IMG/VR virus record: IMGVR_UViG_3300008218_000038
Location: 1-27,271 of that record
Origin: a virus
Length of the DNA stretch: 27,271 nucleotides
Reading direction: 5' to 3' (one strand)
Both the position numbers and the translations under genes were made by a program. Numbering within the stretch: the first letter of the stretch is position 1; each line of letters starts with the position of its first letter. Below, piece by piece: positions 1,707-9,053 of this stretch. The notes under the pieces are model-generated. The model was given only the letters and a program-made list of their open reading frames with translations, ran no database searches and was not told the DNA's origin.

Positions 1707-1986
1707 TTCGCTCCCTCCATTCTTTTATAAGGTCTTCTTTGAAGCCCTTAACCTCAACGTCCAGTGCGTGCATGAACGCGCCCTGGTGTCTCTCTTCAAA
1801 CGATTGCTTCATTCGGTCGCCGTGCTTCTCCATCCACGACTTATAGAAGCGCTGAAGCGCCGGGTCACTCAACACCTCGTCATCAGTTCGGGCATACCGC
1901 TGGCGCATCTTCTCTAGCAGCGCCTTGTCTCTTTCATCTTCAGAGCCCCAGGCCCTATCAAGCAACGCTTTTTTGTCCTCACTCAC
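1699..1986 (-). CDS. Hypothetical protein, 95 residues
   Basis: Leftward gene with a GTG start (1986-1984), chosen because GGAGG lies 7 nt upstream and the start overlaps the nuclease stop by 8 nt (GTGAGTGA). The product is highly charged and predicted all-helical: MSEDKKALLDRAWGSEDERD, then KMRQRYARTDDEV and SWMEKHGDRMKQSFEERHQG. Its C-terminus EDLIKEWRERNE is nearly the same as that of the nuclease (EDLIKEWRERGE), because the DNA at the two gene ends is duplicated. No family recognised. Confidence 0.7.
   Translation of the reverse strand: MSEDKKALLDRAWGSEDERDKALLEKMRQRYARTDDEVLSDPALQRFYKSWMEKHGDRMKQSFEERHQGAFMHALDVEVKGFKEDLIKEWRERNE
1708..1737 (-). repeat. Gene-junction repeat, copy 2
   Basis: Thirty bases identical to 1988-2017. 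With two mismatches the match extends to 39 bases (1699-1737 versus 1979-2017). The unit carries the last codons of one gene (EDLIKEWRER), the Shine-Dalgarno, the stop, and the start plus first codons (MSE) of the next gene. Confidence 0.85.
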
Positions 1987-2311
1987 CTCGCTCCCTCCAT
2001 TCTTTTATAAGGTCTTCAAAGTCTTCTAGTGGCATAACGATGTAGGGCTCCCGCCGGTCCTCTTTGATGACGGCCACAGGGACCATGCCTTTGGGGCAGG
2101 TGGTCACCGCGGTCTCTAGAGCTGTTCGGATGGGTGGCTTTTTGCCTACCTTGCACTCTATGTGGAAGGGGCCGGCGCTGACGTCTGGGCACTCAGCGGC
2201 ACCACCTCTCATCTGGAAACCTCTTTTGGCGTCTGTAAAGCCGATGGCCTTGAGCCGGTTGACGACGTCTCTTTCCCACCGAGCTCCTTTTTGGCGCTGC
2301 ATCTTACCCAT
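1979..2311 (-). CDS. PD-(D/E)XK nuclease, Holliday-junction-resolvase-like
   Basis: A 110-residue protein. It shows GARWERD near the N-terminus (Glu13), PDV at residues 42-44 and IECK at 51-54, giving the D-X8-E-X-K catalytic pattern of small phage PD-(D/E)XK nucleases. The following ALETAVTTCPKGMVPVAVIKEDRREP resembles the rest of the fold in phage and archaeal-type Holliday junction resolvases. The likely role is cutting branched DNA in replication or recombination; a restriction-type role beside a methyltransferase is a weaker alternative. The ATG directly abuts the stop of the WPTP frame (TAAATG) and overlaps the methyltransferase stop by 8 nt. Shine-Dalgarno GGAG lies 6 nt upstream. Confidence 0.7.
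   Translation of the reverse strand: MGKMQRQKGARWERDVVNRLKAIGFTDAKRGFQMRGGAAECPDVSAGPFHIECKVGKKPPIRTALETAVTTCPKGMVPVAVIKEDRREPYIVMPLEDFEDLIKEWRERGE
1988..2017 (-). repeat. Gene-junction repeat, copy 1
   Basis: Thirty bases identical to 1708-1737, 280 bp away. It spans the end of the nuclease gene and supplies the Shine-Dalgarno of the 95-residue gene. Both copies sit in the same reading frame of their upstream gene, so the duplication moved a working translational-coupling junction. Confidence 0.85.
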
Positions 2312-3335
2312 TTAGTCTCCTGTTAAGTTCGATATATGCGAGTGCAGCCTGCGCAGGTACGACGCCATTTCCAAGGGCTGTGAGTCTGTCGGTTCTAGAC
2401 AGGTCCAGCTGGGCGGCATGCCCATTAGTAGCTCTACGAACCGCGGGTTCAAACGACGGGTGCGATCCGAGTAGCGTTGGCCACCTGGAGTCTCGCGGAC
2501 CTGGAGCGAAAAGGGGAACTGACACGCCGCAACCGTCAGCGGTTTCCCTGCGCCATTCGAGTTGTTGTGCTTCGCCTTCAACCTCATCGCCCGCGCCTCC
2601 CACGTCTCGGGCGTCTCCCTGTCGTTTGCCACGCTCGCTGCTGGCGTCGGCCAACTCCCCGCTTCCCCGGCTAACGTCTTGCCGTGGGTTTTGCCGTGAC
2701 TCGGAGCATTCCGAGTCGTCCTGTTTTCGTTTGCACTTGCCCTTGGCGTGGGCCAGTGTCGGGCCTGCTGATCCAGTCCCGCCTCGTTCTTGCGGTCCCC
2801 TCCCCTGCTCCTGAAGCTGTCGGTCCCTGGCGTTTGCCAGGATAAAGACCCGTTCCCTGCGGTGGCTGGCGCCTGCCCAGCTGGAAGCTCGAAAACTTCC
2901 CCAGACAGCATCATACCCCATTTCGGCCAGGGGCCCGAGAACGTGTCCAAGCCCGGTAGCAAGCAAACCTGGCACGTTCTCCAGGAAGACTTGACCGGGT
3001 CCCACCACAGAAATGGCGTTGCAGATGTCACCGAAGATGTGGCGCTCGTCTTCAAGCCCTTTCCCTGGCCCCGCAATCGACCACGGTTGGCACGGGAACC
3101 CCGCGGTGATGCAAGAAACTCGACCAGTGAACGCAGCGTAATCGACGTCAGCGAGATCGCCGCACCATATAGGCGCTGCTTCCAGGCTCTGGTCTTCCAT
3201 CCTCGCCAAGAGGCAGGCCGCCGCTGCACTGTTCCGCTCGATCCAGCATATAACTCGGGCGTCTGCTCTGGCGGCTGCAAGTCCAAGCTCAAGTCCGCCG
3301 ATGCCCGAGCACATAGAGAGGACGGTAAAAGCCAT
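2304..3335 (-). CDS. dcm: DNA (cytosine-5-)-methyltransferase
   Basis: A 343-residue C5-cytosine methyltransferase that transfers a methyl group from SAM to cytosine in DNA. Motif I is MCSGIGGLELG (residues 8-18). Motif IV is GFPCQPWS (79-86) with catalytic Cys82. Motif VI is ENV (119-121). Motif VIII is HRRERVFI (158-165). Motif X is GNGVVP (322-327). The ~130 residues between motifs VIII and X, normally the target-recognition part, are hydrophilic and low-complexity (Gln/Arg/Gly/Ser). That is odd and may reflect the second gene read in the +1 frame of the same DNA. The MAFTV start is preferred because GGAG lies 11 nt upstream; the longer frame up to 3434 adds 33 residues with no motif. A probable role is protecting phage DNA from host restriction. 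Confidence 0.9.
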   Translation of the reverse strand: MAFTVLSMCSGIGGLELGLAAARADARVICWIERNSAAAACLLARMEDQSLEAAPIWCGDLADVDYAAFTGRVSCITAGFPCQPWSIAGPGKGLEDERHIFGDICNAISVVGPGQVFLENVPGLLATGLGHVLGPLAEMGYDAVWGSFRASSWAGASHRRERVFILANARDRQLQEQGRGPQERGGTGSAGPTLAHAKGKCKRKQDDSECSESRQNPRQDVSRGSGELADASSERGKRQGDARDVGGAGDEVEGEAQQLEWRRETADGCGVSVPLFAPGPRDSRWPTLLGSHPSFEPAVRRATNGHAAQLDLSRTDRLTALGNGVVPAQAALAYIELNRRLNG

Positions 3336-3340
3336 GTCAT
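2312..3340 (-). CDS. WPTP-type phage protein nested in the methyltransferase gene (+1 frame)
   Basis: A 342-residue frame on the same strand, almost exactly co-extensive with the methyltransferase. Its ATG (3340) has the best-placed Shine-Dalgarno, GGAG with a 6-nt spacer. Residues (numbered from the upstream ATG 3346) show SSWRTCQ (120-126), FSGPWPKWGMMLSGEVFEL (136-154), WPTP twice (198-201, 232-235) and LNPRFVELLMGMPPSWT (299-315). From memory these match a common phage protein family often annotated loosely as DNA methylase, with SSW(R/K)TSQ, FS-TWP-SG, repeated WPTP and LNP-(F/W)VE-LMG-P-GWT. The first ~115 residues are low-complexity. Function unknown; a partner or specificity role for the methyltransferase is a guess. 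It could still be a translation shadow, but the conserved-looking motifs lie where the other frame is least conserved. Confidence 0.6.
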   Translation of the reverse strand: MTWLLPSSLCARASADLSLDLQPPEQTPELYAGSSGTVQRRPASWRGWKTRAWKQRLYGAAISLTSITLRSLVEFLASPRGSRANRGRLRGQGKGLKTSATSSVTSATPFLWWDPVKSSWRTCQVCLLPGLDTFSGPWPKWGMMLSGEVFELPAGQAPATAGNGSLSWQTPGTDSFRSRGGDRKNEAGLDQQARHWPTPRASANENRTTRNAPSHGKTHGKTLAGEAGSWPTPAASVANDRETPETWEARAMRLKAKHNNSNGAGKPLTVAACQFPFSLQVRETPGGQRYSDRTRRLNPRFVELLMGMPPSWTCLEPTDSQPLEMASYLRRLHSHISNLTGD

Positions 3341-3359
3341 TTTCATCTCCCGGTGTACC

Positions 3360-3377
3360 AGTGCTCATATGGGCACT
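3360..3377. promoter_or_regulatory. 18-bp near-palindrome in the divergent promoter region
   Basis: AGTGC-T-CATATG-G-GCACT reads the same on both strands except for one mismatched pair (16 of 18 positions symmetric). It lies between the leftward methyltransferase start (3335) and the rightward gene start (3413), the natural place for an operator controlling both. Candidate ligands in the window are the RHH-like protein at 3413 and the HTH protein at 36. I could not assign firm -35/-10 boxes. Confidence 0.45.
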
Positions 3378-3412
3378 ATACCATACAATGAAACGTAGCA
3401 TAGGATAAAAGG

Positions 3413-3847
3413 ATGACAACTGAATCAACGACATCGACTTTCAAGGTAGACGGGACGGTCTATCACGACCTGCAACTGTTGAAAGAAAAGACAAAGATAC
3501 CGCTGCGGGTCATCATTGACTTGTTGGGCGAGCTGGCTATTGCTGCTTTGACGGTCAGGGTGCGCCCCGAGTGGGATACGCCGCAGCAGCGCCACAGCCC
3601 GAACGGCGGCGCCAAGATAGTTCACATGAGCAACCACATCTACAAGCGGCTGAAAAAGCTGACAGAGCAGATTGGCCTCAACCCTACCACCGCGGTCAAT
3701 GAGGCGTTTTACGCCAAGCGCTCTGACATCAACAGGCTCAAGGGGATCCGCCTGGAAAACCTAAACCAGTGCTGGAACGCAACCTGTGAGACGGCGCGAC
3801 TGGCAAGCCAAAACAGAATCATCCAAGCGCAGAGCCAAGTCCATTGA
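3413..3847 (+). CDS. Tandem ribbon-helix-helix-like protein in the small-terminase slot
   Basis: A 144-residue protein. Two segments look alike: residues 11-43 (KVDGTVYHDLQLLKEKTKIP onward) and 68-99 (VHMSNHIYKRLKKLTEQIGL onward). Each reads as a short strand followed by two helices, as in CopG/Arc ribbon-helix-helix DNA-binding units. A tandem copy would act as a single-chain dimer. The stop overlaps the TTG start of terL by 4 nt, so the two are translationally coupled. Position suggests the small terminase, which recognises the packaging site and feeds DNA to TerL. A transcriptional regulator of the divergent promoter is the alternative. AAAAGG immediately precedes ATG 3413. Confidence 0.55.
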   Translation: MTTESTTSTFKVDGTVYHDLQLLKEKTKIPLRVIIDLLGELAIAALTVRVRPEWDTPQQRHSPNGGAKIVHMSNHIYKRLKKLTEQIGLNPTTAVNEAFYAKRSDINRLKGIRLENLNQCWNATCETARLASQNRIIQAQSQVH

Positions 3848-6797: not shown

Positions 6798-9053
6798 ATG
6801 CGGGGCCAGTCGCCAATACGGCAGCAGTATGCAAAAAAAGATCAACAGAAAAAGCAACACGTAGCGACCACCGACGAGCAAGACCTTCTCTCATATGTCG
6901 AGCAGCAGTTTGGTGCGTGTGAGTCGTACAAAAAAGGCCGCGTTGCAGACTCGTGGGTCCATCTGGCAATGTATATGGGCAAACAGTGGGTCAAGTGGAA
7001 CGACACCGCGGGCCGGGTAGAAGAGATAGCCCGGGAAGACTGGCAGGTTCATCTTGTTTTGAACTACATCCGCCCAGTCATCCAGCAGCTGGTTGGAAAG
7101 ACCACCGAAAACCGGCCCACCGTAATCGTGTTGCCTGCGACCGATGACTCTGACGATAGAGACAAAGCGCGCGCGTGTGAGAAGCTTATAAGCAGCCACT
7201 TGTGGCACAGGCTGCGCATGCAGCTGAAGATACAAGAGTTTTCGCGGCTCATCTTTCAGACAGGGCTCGGCGTGTTCAAGGTGTCTTGGGATCCAGAGGC
7301 CGGCGACGACTACGAGATGGAGCTGCCGTTGTCTGAAGAGCAGCAAAAGACGGTTGAGGGTTTTGAGCGGTATGACATCGACCCTGGCATTGAGCCAGAG
7401 ATCCAGTCTGGCAAGACGGGTGCCCCGGTTGTCGATGTGCTCTCGGTGTTCGAGGTGGGCTGGGATCCAGGCGCCACAAGCATGGACACCAGCCGGTGGG
7501 CCTATCACGTCAACGCGATGCACATAGACGACGTGCGTGAGCGATGGAAAAAGGGTAAACACGTCAACCCCAACACTGCTTTTGACAATGACATGTTGTC
7601 ACTGCGCGTGCTTCGCTCTGCCACCCACCAGCGTGGCGACAAAAACACCCTCATGTCAGATCGTGTCAAGGTTATAGAGTACTTTGAGAAACCATCGCCC
7701 AGATACCCCAAAGGGCTATACGCGGTGGTTGCTGGCGGTGTTGTGCTGGAGTCCCAAAAAGAGCTGCCGCTGGGCGAGTTGCCTTTTGTTGTTGCGCGCC
7801 ACCTGCCGGTACATGGTCGGGTGGACGGTGACGGCGCCATTCAAGACTTGATTGCACCGCAGGAAGAGGTTAACAAAAAGTGCAGCTCGCGGATTGAAAA
7901 CGCCAACCAGATGCTCAACCAGAAGTGGTTGGTGGTCAAGGGTTCGCTGGTCAACGGTGAGATAACGGACCAGCCCGGTGAGATCATAGAGTACGACGCT
8001 CAGTATCCACCTCCGCGGCCAATATCGCCCCCGGCCATGCCGTCTGAGGTTGGCAGGCTTCAAGACGAGATGCTTGTCCACATGAGAAACATCTCAGGCG
8101 TGAACGAAGTCCAGCAGGGATCTGTTCCCGCCGGCATCAGCGGCCGCGCCATCGGCATGATGGCAGACGCACAAGCCACGGTGCTCGGGCCAACCGTTCG
8201 CGAGATAGAGGTGGCCCTTGAGGACGTATGCTCAAGACTGCTGCGCTACTGGCGAGACAACATGCCAATGCCCGTCACGATACGAGCGCTCGGCCAAGAG
8301 GCTGCGCCAGAGATCATGACCTTTTATGCGACCGACATCCGCTCTACAGATGTCGTCATTCGGCCCAACAGCCTGCTCCCAAAACAGCCCTCATACCGCA
8401 GAGAGCAGGTAATGATGGCGTTTACGCAGGGGATATTTGGCGACCCAAGCAGCCCTGAGTCGCAGATGAAAGTACGAAAGATGCTTGAATGGGGCGAGCT
8501 CGACGACCTGTTTGGCGACAACAGCAGGGACCGGATCTACGCACGAGAGATGCTGCGCCTTATCAGCGGTGGTGGCCAGGTTAACCCGGAACCATGGGAA
8601 GACCACGTTACAATTATCGATGAGTTTCACGACATGATGACGTCTGTGACGTACCGGTTGCTGGCGCAGCCTGTTCAGGACGAGGTCAAACGGAACTTCG
8701 CGTGGCACTACTACTACCAGTCACAGTTGCAGCAGGGCATCCCATGGTGGGAGATGCCGCAAAGCAACGGCTGGCCGCCCTCACAACAGCAACAGCAACA
8801 GCAGCAACCGTTTGCGCCAGAACCCGTGCCACCCGAGCAGGTGTTTGGGCCAGGGGAAGGAATGCCACCCGAAGGAATGCCGCCCGAGGGGGTGCCGCCC
8901 GAGCAGGGTCCCGGCATGGGCGACATACAAGCAATGCTCCAACAGATGACCGGCGGCGCCAGCGCCCCGTATGGCGGGCCACCCGAAATGAACGCCTCTG
9001 TTCATGGTCCCGGCGTACCGGCGGCAGAGCTTGGCGGGTTGTTCGGAGAATAA
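6798..9053 (+). CDS. Portal protein
   Basis: A 751-residue portal, the dodecameric ring at one capsid vertex through which TerL packages DNA. It resembles P22-type podovirus portals in length and motifs: VHLVLNYIRPVIQQLVGKTT (about 84-103), a helical wing with ACEKLISSHLWHRL, the core segment PQEEVNKKCSSRIENANQ, and GISGRAIGMMADAQATVLGP followed by a long helix. The last ~100 residues are low-complexity, with an eight-to-nine-Gln run, MPPEG-type repeats and PEQVFG, followed by MNASVHGPGVPAAELGGLFG. A Rho-independent terminator follows the gene. Confidence 0.88.
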   Translation: MRGQSPIRQQYAKKDQQKKQHVATTDEQDLLSYVEQQFGACESYKKGRVADSWVHLAMYMGKQWVKWNDTAGRVEEIAREDWQVHLVLNYIRPVIQQLVGKTTENRPTVIVLPATDDSDDRDKARACEKLISSHLWHRLRMQLKIQEFSRLIFQTGLGVFKVSWDPEAGDDYEMELPLSEEQQKTVEGFERYDIDPGIEPEIQSGKTGAPVVDVLSVFEVGWDPGATSMDTSRWAYHVNAMHIDDVRERWKKGKHVNPNTAFDNDMLSLRVLRSATHQRGDKNTLMSDRVKVIEYFEKPSPRYPKGLYAVVAGGVVLESQKELPLGELPFVVARHLPVHGRVDGDGAIQDLIAPQEEVNKKCSSRIENANQMLNQKWLVVKGSLVNGEITDQPGEIIEYDAQYPPPRPISPPAMPSEVGRLQDEMLVHMRNISGVNEVQQGSVPAGISGRAIGMMADAQATVLGPTVREIEVALEDVCSRLLRYWRDNMPMPVTIRALGQEAAPEIMTFYATDIRSTDVVIRPNSLLPKQPSYRREQVMMAFTQGIFGDPSSPESQMKVRKMLEWGELDDLFGDNSRDRIYAREMLRLISGGGQVNPEPWEDHVTIIDEFHDMMTSVTYRLLAQPVQDEVKRNFAWHYYYQSQLQQGIPWWEMPQSNGWPPSQQQQQQQQPFAPEPVPPEQVFGPGEGMPPEGMPPEGVPPEQGPGMGDIQAMLQQMTGGASAPYGGPPEMNASVHGPGVPAAELGGLFGE

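Follow-up and report, generated by a model that had tools for sequence, protein, structure and literature searches.

A 27-kb phage record in IMG/VR (IMGVR_UViG_3300008218_000038), analysed here over its whole 27,271-nt stretch (the window), holds a C5-cytosine DNA methyltransferase gene (D) with a second long open reading frame (W) nested in its +1 frame. The question raised by this locus is what the nested protein does. The first-pass annotation had noted that the DNA for the catalytic VFLENV of D, read one base later, gives the SSWRT of W, and had proposed that the entire WPTP/SSWRT family may have been born by overprinting of a phage dcm gene and separated later. In our analysis, W looks like the target-recognition half of the methyltransferase itself, composed of WPTP repeats and an LNPxFVEWLMGxPxGWT block and belonging to a large phage family; this reading looks preferable to that of an unrelated newborn protein.

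All features of the locus lie on the minus strand. The D gene (2304–3335) encodes 343 amino acids starting from MAFTV, within an ORF spanning 2304–3434 that stays open upstream of MAFTV to 3434. Its PF00145 match (2.1e-27) covers residues 36–209, and D contains motifs I–VIII of a C5-cytosine DNA methyltransferase, among them PCQ of catalytic motif IV (3087–3095, 114 nt upstream of ENV), VFLENV of motif VI (2973–2990) and GASHRRERVF of motif VIII (2844–2873). A recognition domain and motif IX preceding motif X are absent from this chain: the recognition and IX blocks sit in W, and GNGVVP, the motif X block (2355–2372), alone is in D. The C-terminal blocks of W and D are here called IX and X, after the motifs of these enzymes. 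The W gene (2312–3346) encodes 344 amino acids and matches phrog_1008. It carries FSGPWPKWGM (2912–2941) over the VII–VIII part of D, a region that in relatives is free of W-frame stops and conserved in W, followed by WQTP (2828–2839), the first WPTP-type repeat, and two WPTP repeats (2744–2755 and 2642–2653), where D reads LANA, LAHA and LADA, respectively. Finally, LNPRFVELLMGMPPSWT (2402–2452) stands at the position of C5-methyltransferase motif IX, its canonical counterpart being LTPRECWRLQGFPDWA. The start codon of W is likely the ATG at 3346 or 3340, and GGGAG (3347–3351) is a candidate Shine-Dalgarno sequence that may serve this ATG and the D ATG (3335) alike. Upon synonymous shuffling, 4.9 W-frame stops were expected and only that of W itself was present (p 0.008); over the last 175 codons of W, D had no stop compared to 4.9 expected (p 0.0002).

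An ORF for a PDDEXK/RusA-like nuclease (1979–2311, minus strand; phrog_244 5.2e-20; PF24608 3.4e-5, under the curated cut-off) begins right after the W stop codon, which gives D, W and the nuclease the appearance of a single operon. Elsewhere in the window, a large ORF (6798–9053, plus strand) upstream of scaffold-like genes encodes a long glutamine run, with repeated PPEGMPPEG units near the C-terminus.

Related loci were gathered from both sides of the overlap. A W-ascertained viral set consisted of the best 80 of at least 562 relatives, among at least 600 stretches, selected by the W-frame motif, and a D-ascertained set of the best 80 of at least 589, chosen by D-frame catalytic patterns only. 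From the best 80 genome loci, six duplicates and two loci cut by contig ends were removed, leaving 72 usable. L001 and L064 were left out since no core was found, and L013 and L085 were excluded as duplicates from the analyses of the start of W, as were loci with a D stop inside the tested stretch. All 80 best-scoring W-ascertained viral loci had motif VI in the D frame, in one and the same register and ahead of the W motif; 78 of them had motif IV too (exceptions L041 and L064). The overlap was present in 72/72 usable genome loci (70 recognised by script, the remaining L228 and L230 by eye), which come from diverse bacteria of many groups and from one Euryarchaeota MAG; two plasmid records matched W. 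The single +1 register claimed for the family was thus borne out at every usable related locus examined. A free-standing W, which a later separation from dcm would have left, was found in none of the 152 usable motif-ascertained loci, the best-scoring of larger sets in which rare exceptions are possible.

Two loci sets in this collection deserve mention for other reasons. A Roseovarius chromosome record contains five D/W loci (L281–L285) with identical match scores, perhaps several copies of one prophage. In a Gallionella MAG (L230), motif VI of D is not in the same frame as motifs I–IV, likely owing to an indel or sequencing error.

Both frames are kept open by selection over the same DNA. 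When D codons were shuffled, 161 of the 172 loci had a significantly open W (p<0.05) and 5 a significantly open third frame; in 107 loci, none of 500 shuffles matched the openness of W. In the best 80 D-ascertained loci, W reached at least 150 amino acids in 79, with p<0.05 in 73, and the third frame at least 150 codons in two. Conversely, when W codons were shuffled, D showed 59 stops over the repeat region versus 589 expected (third frame: 1002 versus 964), and 145 of 153 loci had no D stop there at all. In L125, L129, L160 and L014, D is interrupted in the repeats with W intact and the GN block still in D, by assembly error, decay or reinitiation.

The constraint on the two frames changes along the locus, as seen from 68 disjoint locus pairs with positions given in nt relative to ENV. 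Between −330 and +130, amino acid identity was.74–.83 in D,.53–.65 in W and.52–.59 in the third frame; between +130 and +400, it was.74–.80 in W,.59–.64 in D and.55–.56 in the third frame; beyond +400, D and W were roughly equal. The most variable D codon position shifts from 3 to 1 downstream of +130, and codon periodicity switches from D to W just past motif VIII. Taken with the stop counts, these identities indicate that in either chain one half is constrained and the other is kept open under only weak constraint. Further upstream, between −450 and −330, W-frame identity was.815 versus.738 for D (412 codons, from some of the 68 pairs), which is perhaps due to an upstream gene in the W frame.

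That W belongs to the enzyme was first suggested by phrog_1008 ("DNA methyltransferase"), as it bridges both frames: it matches W residues 80–322 (2.2e-21), and its last positions match the motif X/GNGVVP end of D (6e-5). All 43 W proteins tested matched this profile. The W repeats and block also aligned with the corresponding region of fused, single-frame enzymes (hhalign probability 97.6, E 4.2e-12), so this part of W has a homologous non-overlapping counterpart, and W as a whole does not qualify as a product of de novo overprinting. The IX-like block occupies the place of LTPRECWRLQGFP in canonical enzymes. Against canonical C5-methyltransferases, hhalign sets LNPxWVEWLMG on LTPRECWRLQG at a profile similarity that is not significant (E 0.42, probability 0.1%), and the position in fused enzymes agrees with this placement. 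No convincing Pfam match was obtained for W, and a PDB search with the W profile returned chance-level ribosomal-protein matches only (best E 0.71). A folded recognition domain was looked for with AlphaFold, which returned confident models neither for W (mean pLDDT 61, pTM 0.28, repeats unstructured) nor for the repeats of the fused enzyme (pLDDT 22–35 across most of the array). It is from the occurrence of the same blocks in split enzymes and, at the recognition position, in fused ones, together with this alignment and the place of the block, that W is read as the recognition/IX half.

The distribution of these blocks between the frames varies among phages. The window type, in which W holds the LNPxFVEWLMG block and D holds GNxV, was found in 138 of 172 loci; both blocks were in D in seven and both in W in four, the remainder being truncated, unclear, mixed or broken. 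At the level of sequence, conserved motifs are hence divided between two polypeptides in 138 of 172 loci, plus the four with both blocks in W. In the split pairs of Toaka (gp83/82), DarthPhader (gp80/79), Murai (gp6/5) and Lilbooboo (gp32/33), D goes no further than motif VIII, W bears the repeats, the IX-like block and GNxV, and each gene is annotated as a DNA methylase in the deposited records. DLane gp65 is fused: a single frame encodes motifs I–VIII together with four LPTP repeats, the block and GNGV. Among the relatives of DLane, L186 has the blocks at 414/504/597/822/906 in D, and L194 at 415/505/598/823/907 in W, one base later. Judging from such sequences, blocks are shifted between frames by single-base changes in close relatives. 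The single-frame F-cluster mycobacteriophages (L184–L209) mostly retain a short W ORF, with the FSET-type block and the first LPTP repeats, that ends immediately ahead of the point where the repeats pass into D.

W does not begin at the same place in all lineages. Across 168 loci, W-frame stops were at chance level upstream of −150. From −150 to −30 only 16 were present where 147 were expected, and from −30 to +150 there were none where 260 were expected. W is protected from the D start, i.e. from −300, in the GN[GA]QVP class (64 loci), and likewise from the D start in the LRLLGNGVVP class, whose 28 loci had 0 stops in the stretch tested where 74 were expected. In the other two classes, of 133 and 11 loci, protection set in at about motif IV, and in the actinophages (28 loci) only past about +60, the frame often being closed at motif VI. 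Among 57 loci whose W start must fall just before motif IV, an ATG preceded by a Shine-Dalgarno sequence was present there in 29, compared to 10.2 expected and none in the third frame; this strong signal was missing at the expected place in the other 28. Together, onset pattern and start signals fit internal initiation rather than slippage at motif VIII, and W appears to be initiated independently from its own start. A single start codon conserved throughout the family was rejected, as the start varies by clade. The idea that WRGxVD of D encodes a shared Shine-Dalgarno and gATG start was dropped as well, with an ATG there in just 16 of 169 loci.

This variable onset bears directly on SSWRT. 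The reported correspondence is exact: GTCTTCCTGGAGAACGTG at 2973–2990 encodes VFLENV (D residues 116–121), and from 2989 the W frame reads TCT TCC TGG AGA ACG, with DTFSGPWPKWGMM coming next in the same frame. The window W continues as SSWRTCQ, not SSWRTSQ. The frame is no local coincidence, being open for 344 codons, and given VFLENV and the codon usage of D, SSWRT arose in 1.4% of draws. Motif VI constrains its last two places (165 loci: R/K in 164, T:M 84:81). Among 258 distinct loci, seven had exact SSWRT and 23 had SSW[RK][TM]. Compared to codon-usage expectation, the tryptophan of SSWRT was in excess (94 versus 39.9, z 10.5), as was the first S (134 versus 88.1, z 6.5); E to R was not enriched, and N to T was depleted overall (z −3.4) and enriched in the subset with V before EN (42/44 versus 29.3 expected). 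On these sequence counts, SSWRT is partly forced by D, partly selected in W, and limited to some lineages. SSWRT alone was dropped as proof of overprinting, because half of the pentapeptide is forced by motif VI. As the W frame of actinophages is frequently interrupted at motif VI and protected only downstream of it, SSWRT would be an optional extension and not the origin of the family; the variation of the onset by lineage makes it part of a lineage-specific upstream extension. What survives of the proposed overprinting origin is this upstream extension with SSWRT, the only part of W that looks overprinted; the birth of the whole family in this way finds no support.

A FastTree phylogeny of D motifs I–VIII comprised 151 rows with an assigned state (WD 131, WW 10, DD 10) and was rooted with two canonical rows, canonical L181 being left out. 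The arrangement changes at least 10 times on this tree, the frame of the IX-like block at least four times and that of the GN block at least nine times. The window arrangement is the commonest and, as rooted, basal, and the single-frame forms are nested inside, mostly among actinophages; the direction of change is weak, as the root relies on two distant sequences. On this rough tree, the non-overlapping form thus falls inside the overlapping ones, where the single-frame enzymes in question are not free-standing W proteins. A possible history is that the recognition/IX part of an ancestral methyltransferase was displaced into the +1 frame, that the W N-terminus including SSWRT would then have been extended upstream over the catalytic domain by overprinting, and that this growth may have reached different lengths in different lineages.

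We consider it probable that D and W are the two chains of one C5-cytosine methyltransferase, encoded at this locus in overlapping frames. D would provide the catalytic domain (motifs I–VIII) and, in the window, the terminal GNGVVP of motif X; W, started independently near the D start, would provide the recognition region with the WPTP repeats and the motif-IX-like block. Both chains would be produced and associate with each other, and their modification of phage DNA would probably be directed against host restriction. The short open W in single-frame phages is a point against this model, which also offers no account of the D stops in the repeats of L014, L125, L129 and L160 with the GN block in D. 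The low-confidence AlphaFold models, the non-significant or unconvincing matches of W to canonical C5-methyltransferases, Pfam and PDB, and the 28 of 57 loci with no strong Shine-Dalgarno-ATG likewise count against it. A newborn, unrelated W would agree with the one invariable register and with the N-terminal parts of W over motifs I–VI, which occur only as an overlapping frame. We regard it as quite improbable, given the lack of free-standing members in the loci above and the often closed actinophage frame over motif VI, and because single-frame F-cluster mycobacteriophage methyltransferases bear the same repeats, with LAAAFPEWMMG as the block, at the target-recognition position.

Programmed frameshifting, in which D is read, the ribosome slips +1 into W and, in the window type, slips back for motif X to yield one chain, is unlikely in our view. 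The fused enzymes indicate that the blocks can work in one chain, and the accessible part of the PRFect paper counts methyltransferases among genes known to frameshift. Slippage, however, requires neither a W frame kept free of stops well ahead of motif VIII, from an onset that varies by clade and coincides with Shine-Dalgarno-ATG starts, nor a D frame open through the entire repeat region, and two opposite slips would be required in 138 of 172 loci. That W is a separate functional protein outside the enzyme, e.g. for anti-restriction, merely sharing its DNA, would suit its apparently independent initiation and the lack of a convincing Pfam match; it is very unlikely, since split enzymes, with a D that reaches only as far as motif VIII, have the motif X block on W, and fused enzymes contain the W repeats within D. 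We give hardly any credence to an untranslated W kept open through codon bias and dcm conservation. Motif VI does force part of SSWRT, but third-frame controls were at chance where W was not, periodicity switches to W, W start codons are enriched, and three canonical dcm genes without W show many W-frame stops.

The small chain of M.EcoHK31I is read from another frame inside the gene of the large chain. This enzyme and M.AquI, two-polypeptide C5-methyltransferases and the closest precedents for the D/W pair, are described in the accessible text of PMC3404938. According to that text, the larger chain of M.EcoHK31I holds motifs I–VIII and X and the smaller one motif IX, the same motif split as between D and W in the window; the large chain is also credited with the recognition domain, in contrast to the phage loci with a conserved recognition region in W. 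For M.AquI, the same source places motifs I–VIII in the large chain and the distal variable region with motifs IX–X in the small one, a division resembling the split forms of Toaka, DarthPhader, Murai and Lilbooboo, whereas the window holds motif X on D and its D/W overlap is nearly full-length. Artificially split C5-methyltransferases are also reported there to reassemble, best with a C-terminal piece starting between motif VIII and the recognition domain.

Two-polypeptide enzymes of this type are therefore already known, and it is the family-wide, two-frame nested arrangement that looks new. A literature search, largely without subscription journals, found no description of a family-wide D/W overlap; the accessible parts of the Tweety and Paenibacillus papers list methylases without remarking on it. 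The phrog_1008 entry as shown is a sequence cluster without mention of overlap or two chains. The same +1 nested pair was annotated singly in Shelly (gp56, "g55 internal gene") and K1ind2 (ORF28, "Mte8-like", over ORF29), in records that, as shown, make no statement on function or on a family. Annotated records often name D alone or W alone.

It seems somewhat likely that a common phage C5-methyltransferase is a heterodimer from two frames, with repeats that hop between them by single-base changes and a second N-terminus growing upstream by overprinting, as a graded natural series of overlap expansion. If D and W form a single enzyme, many annotated phage methylases would have their specificity encoded in a frame that is not read, and the "hypothetical proteins" of the W family would gain a function. 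The nested, split and fused forms, together with the three start positions of W, would then provide a series for studying how overlapping genes originate, extend and are resolved.
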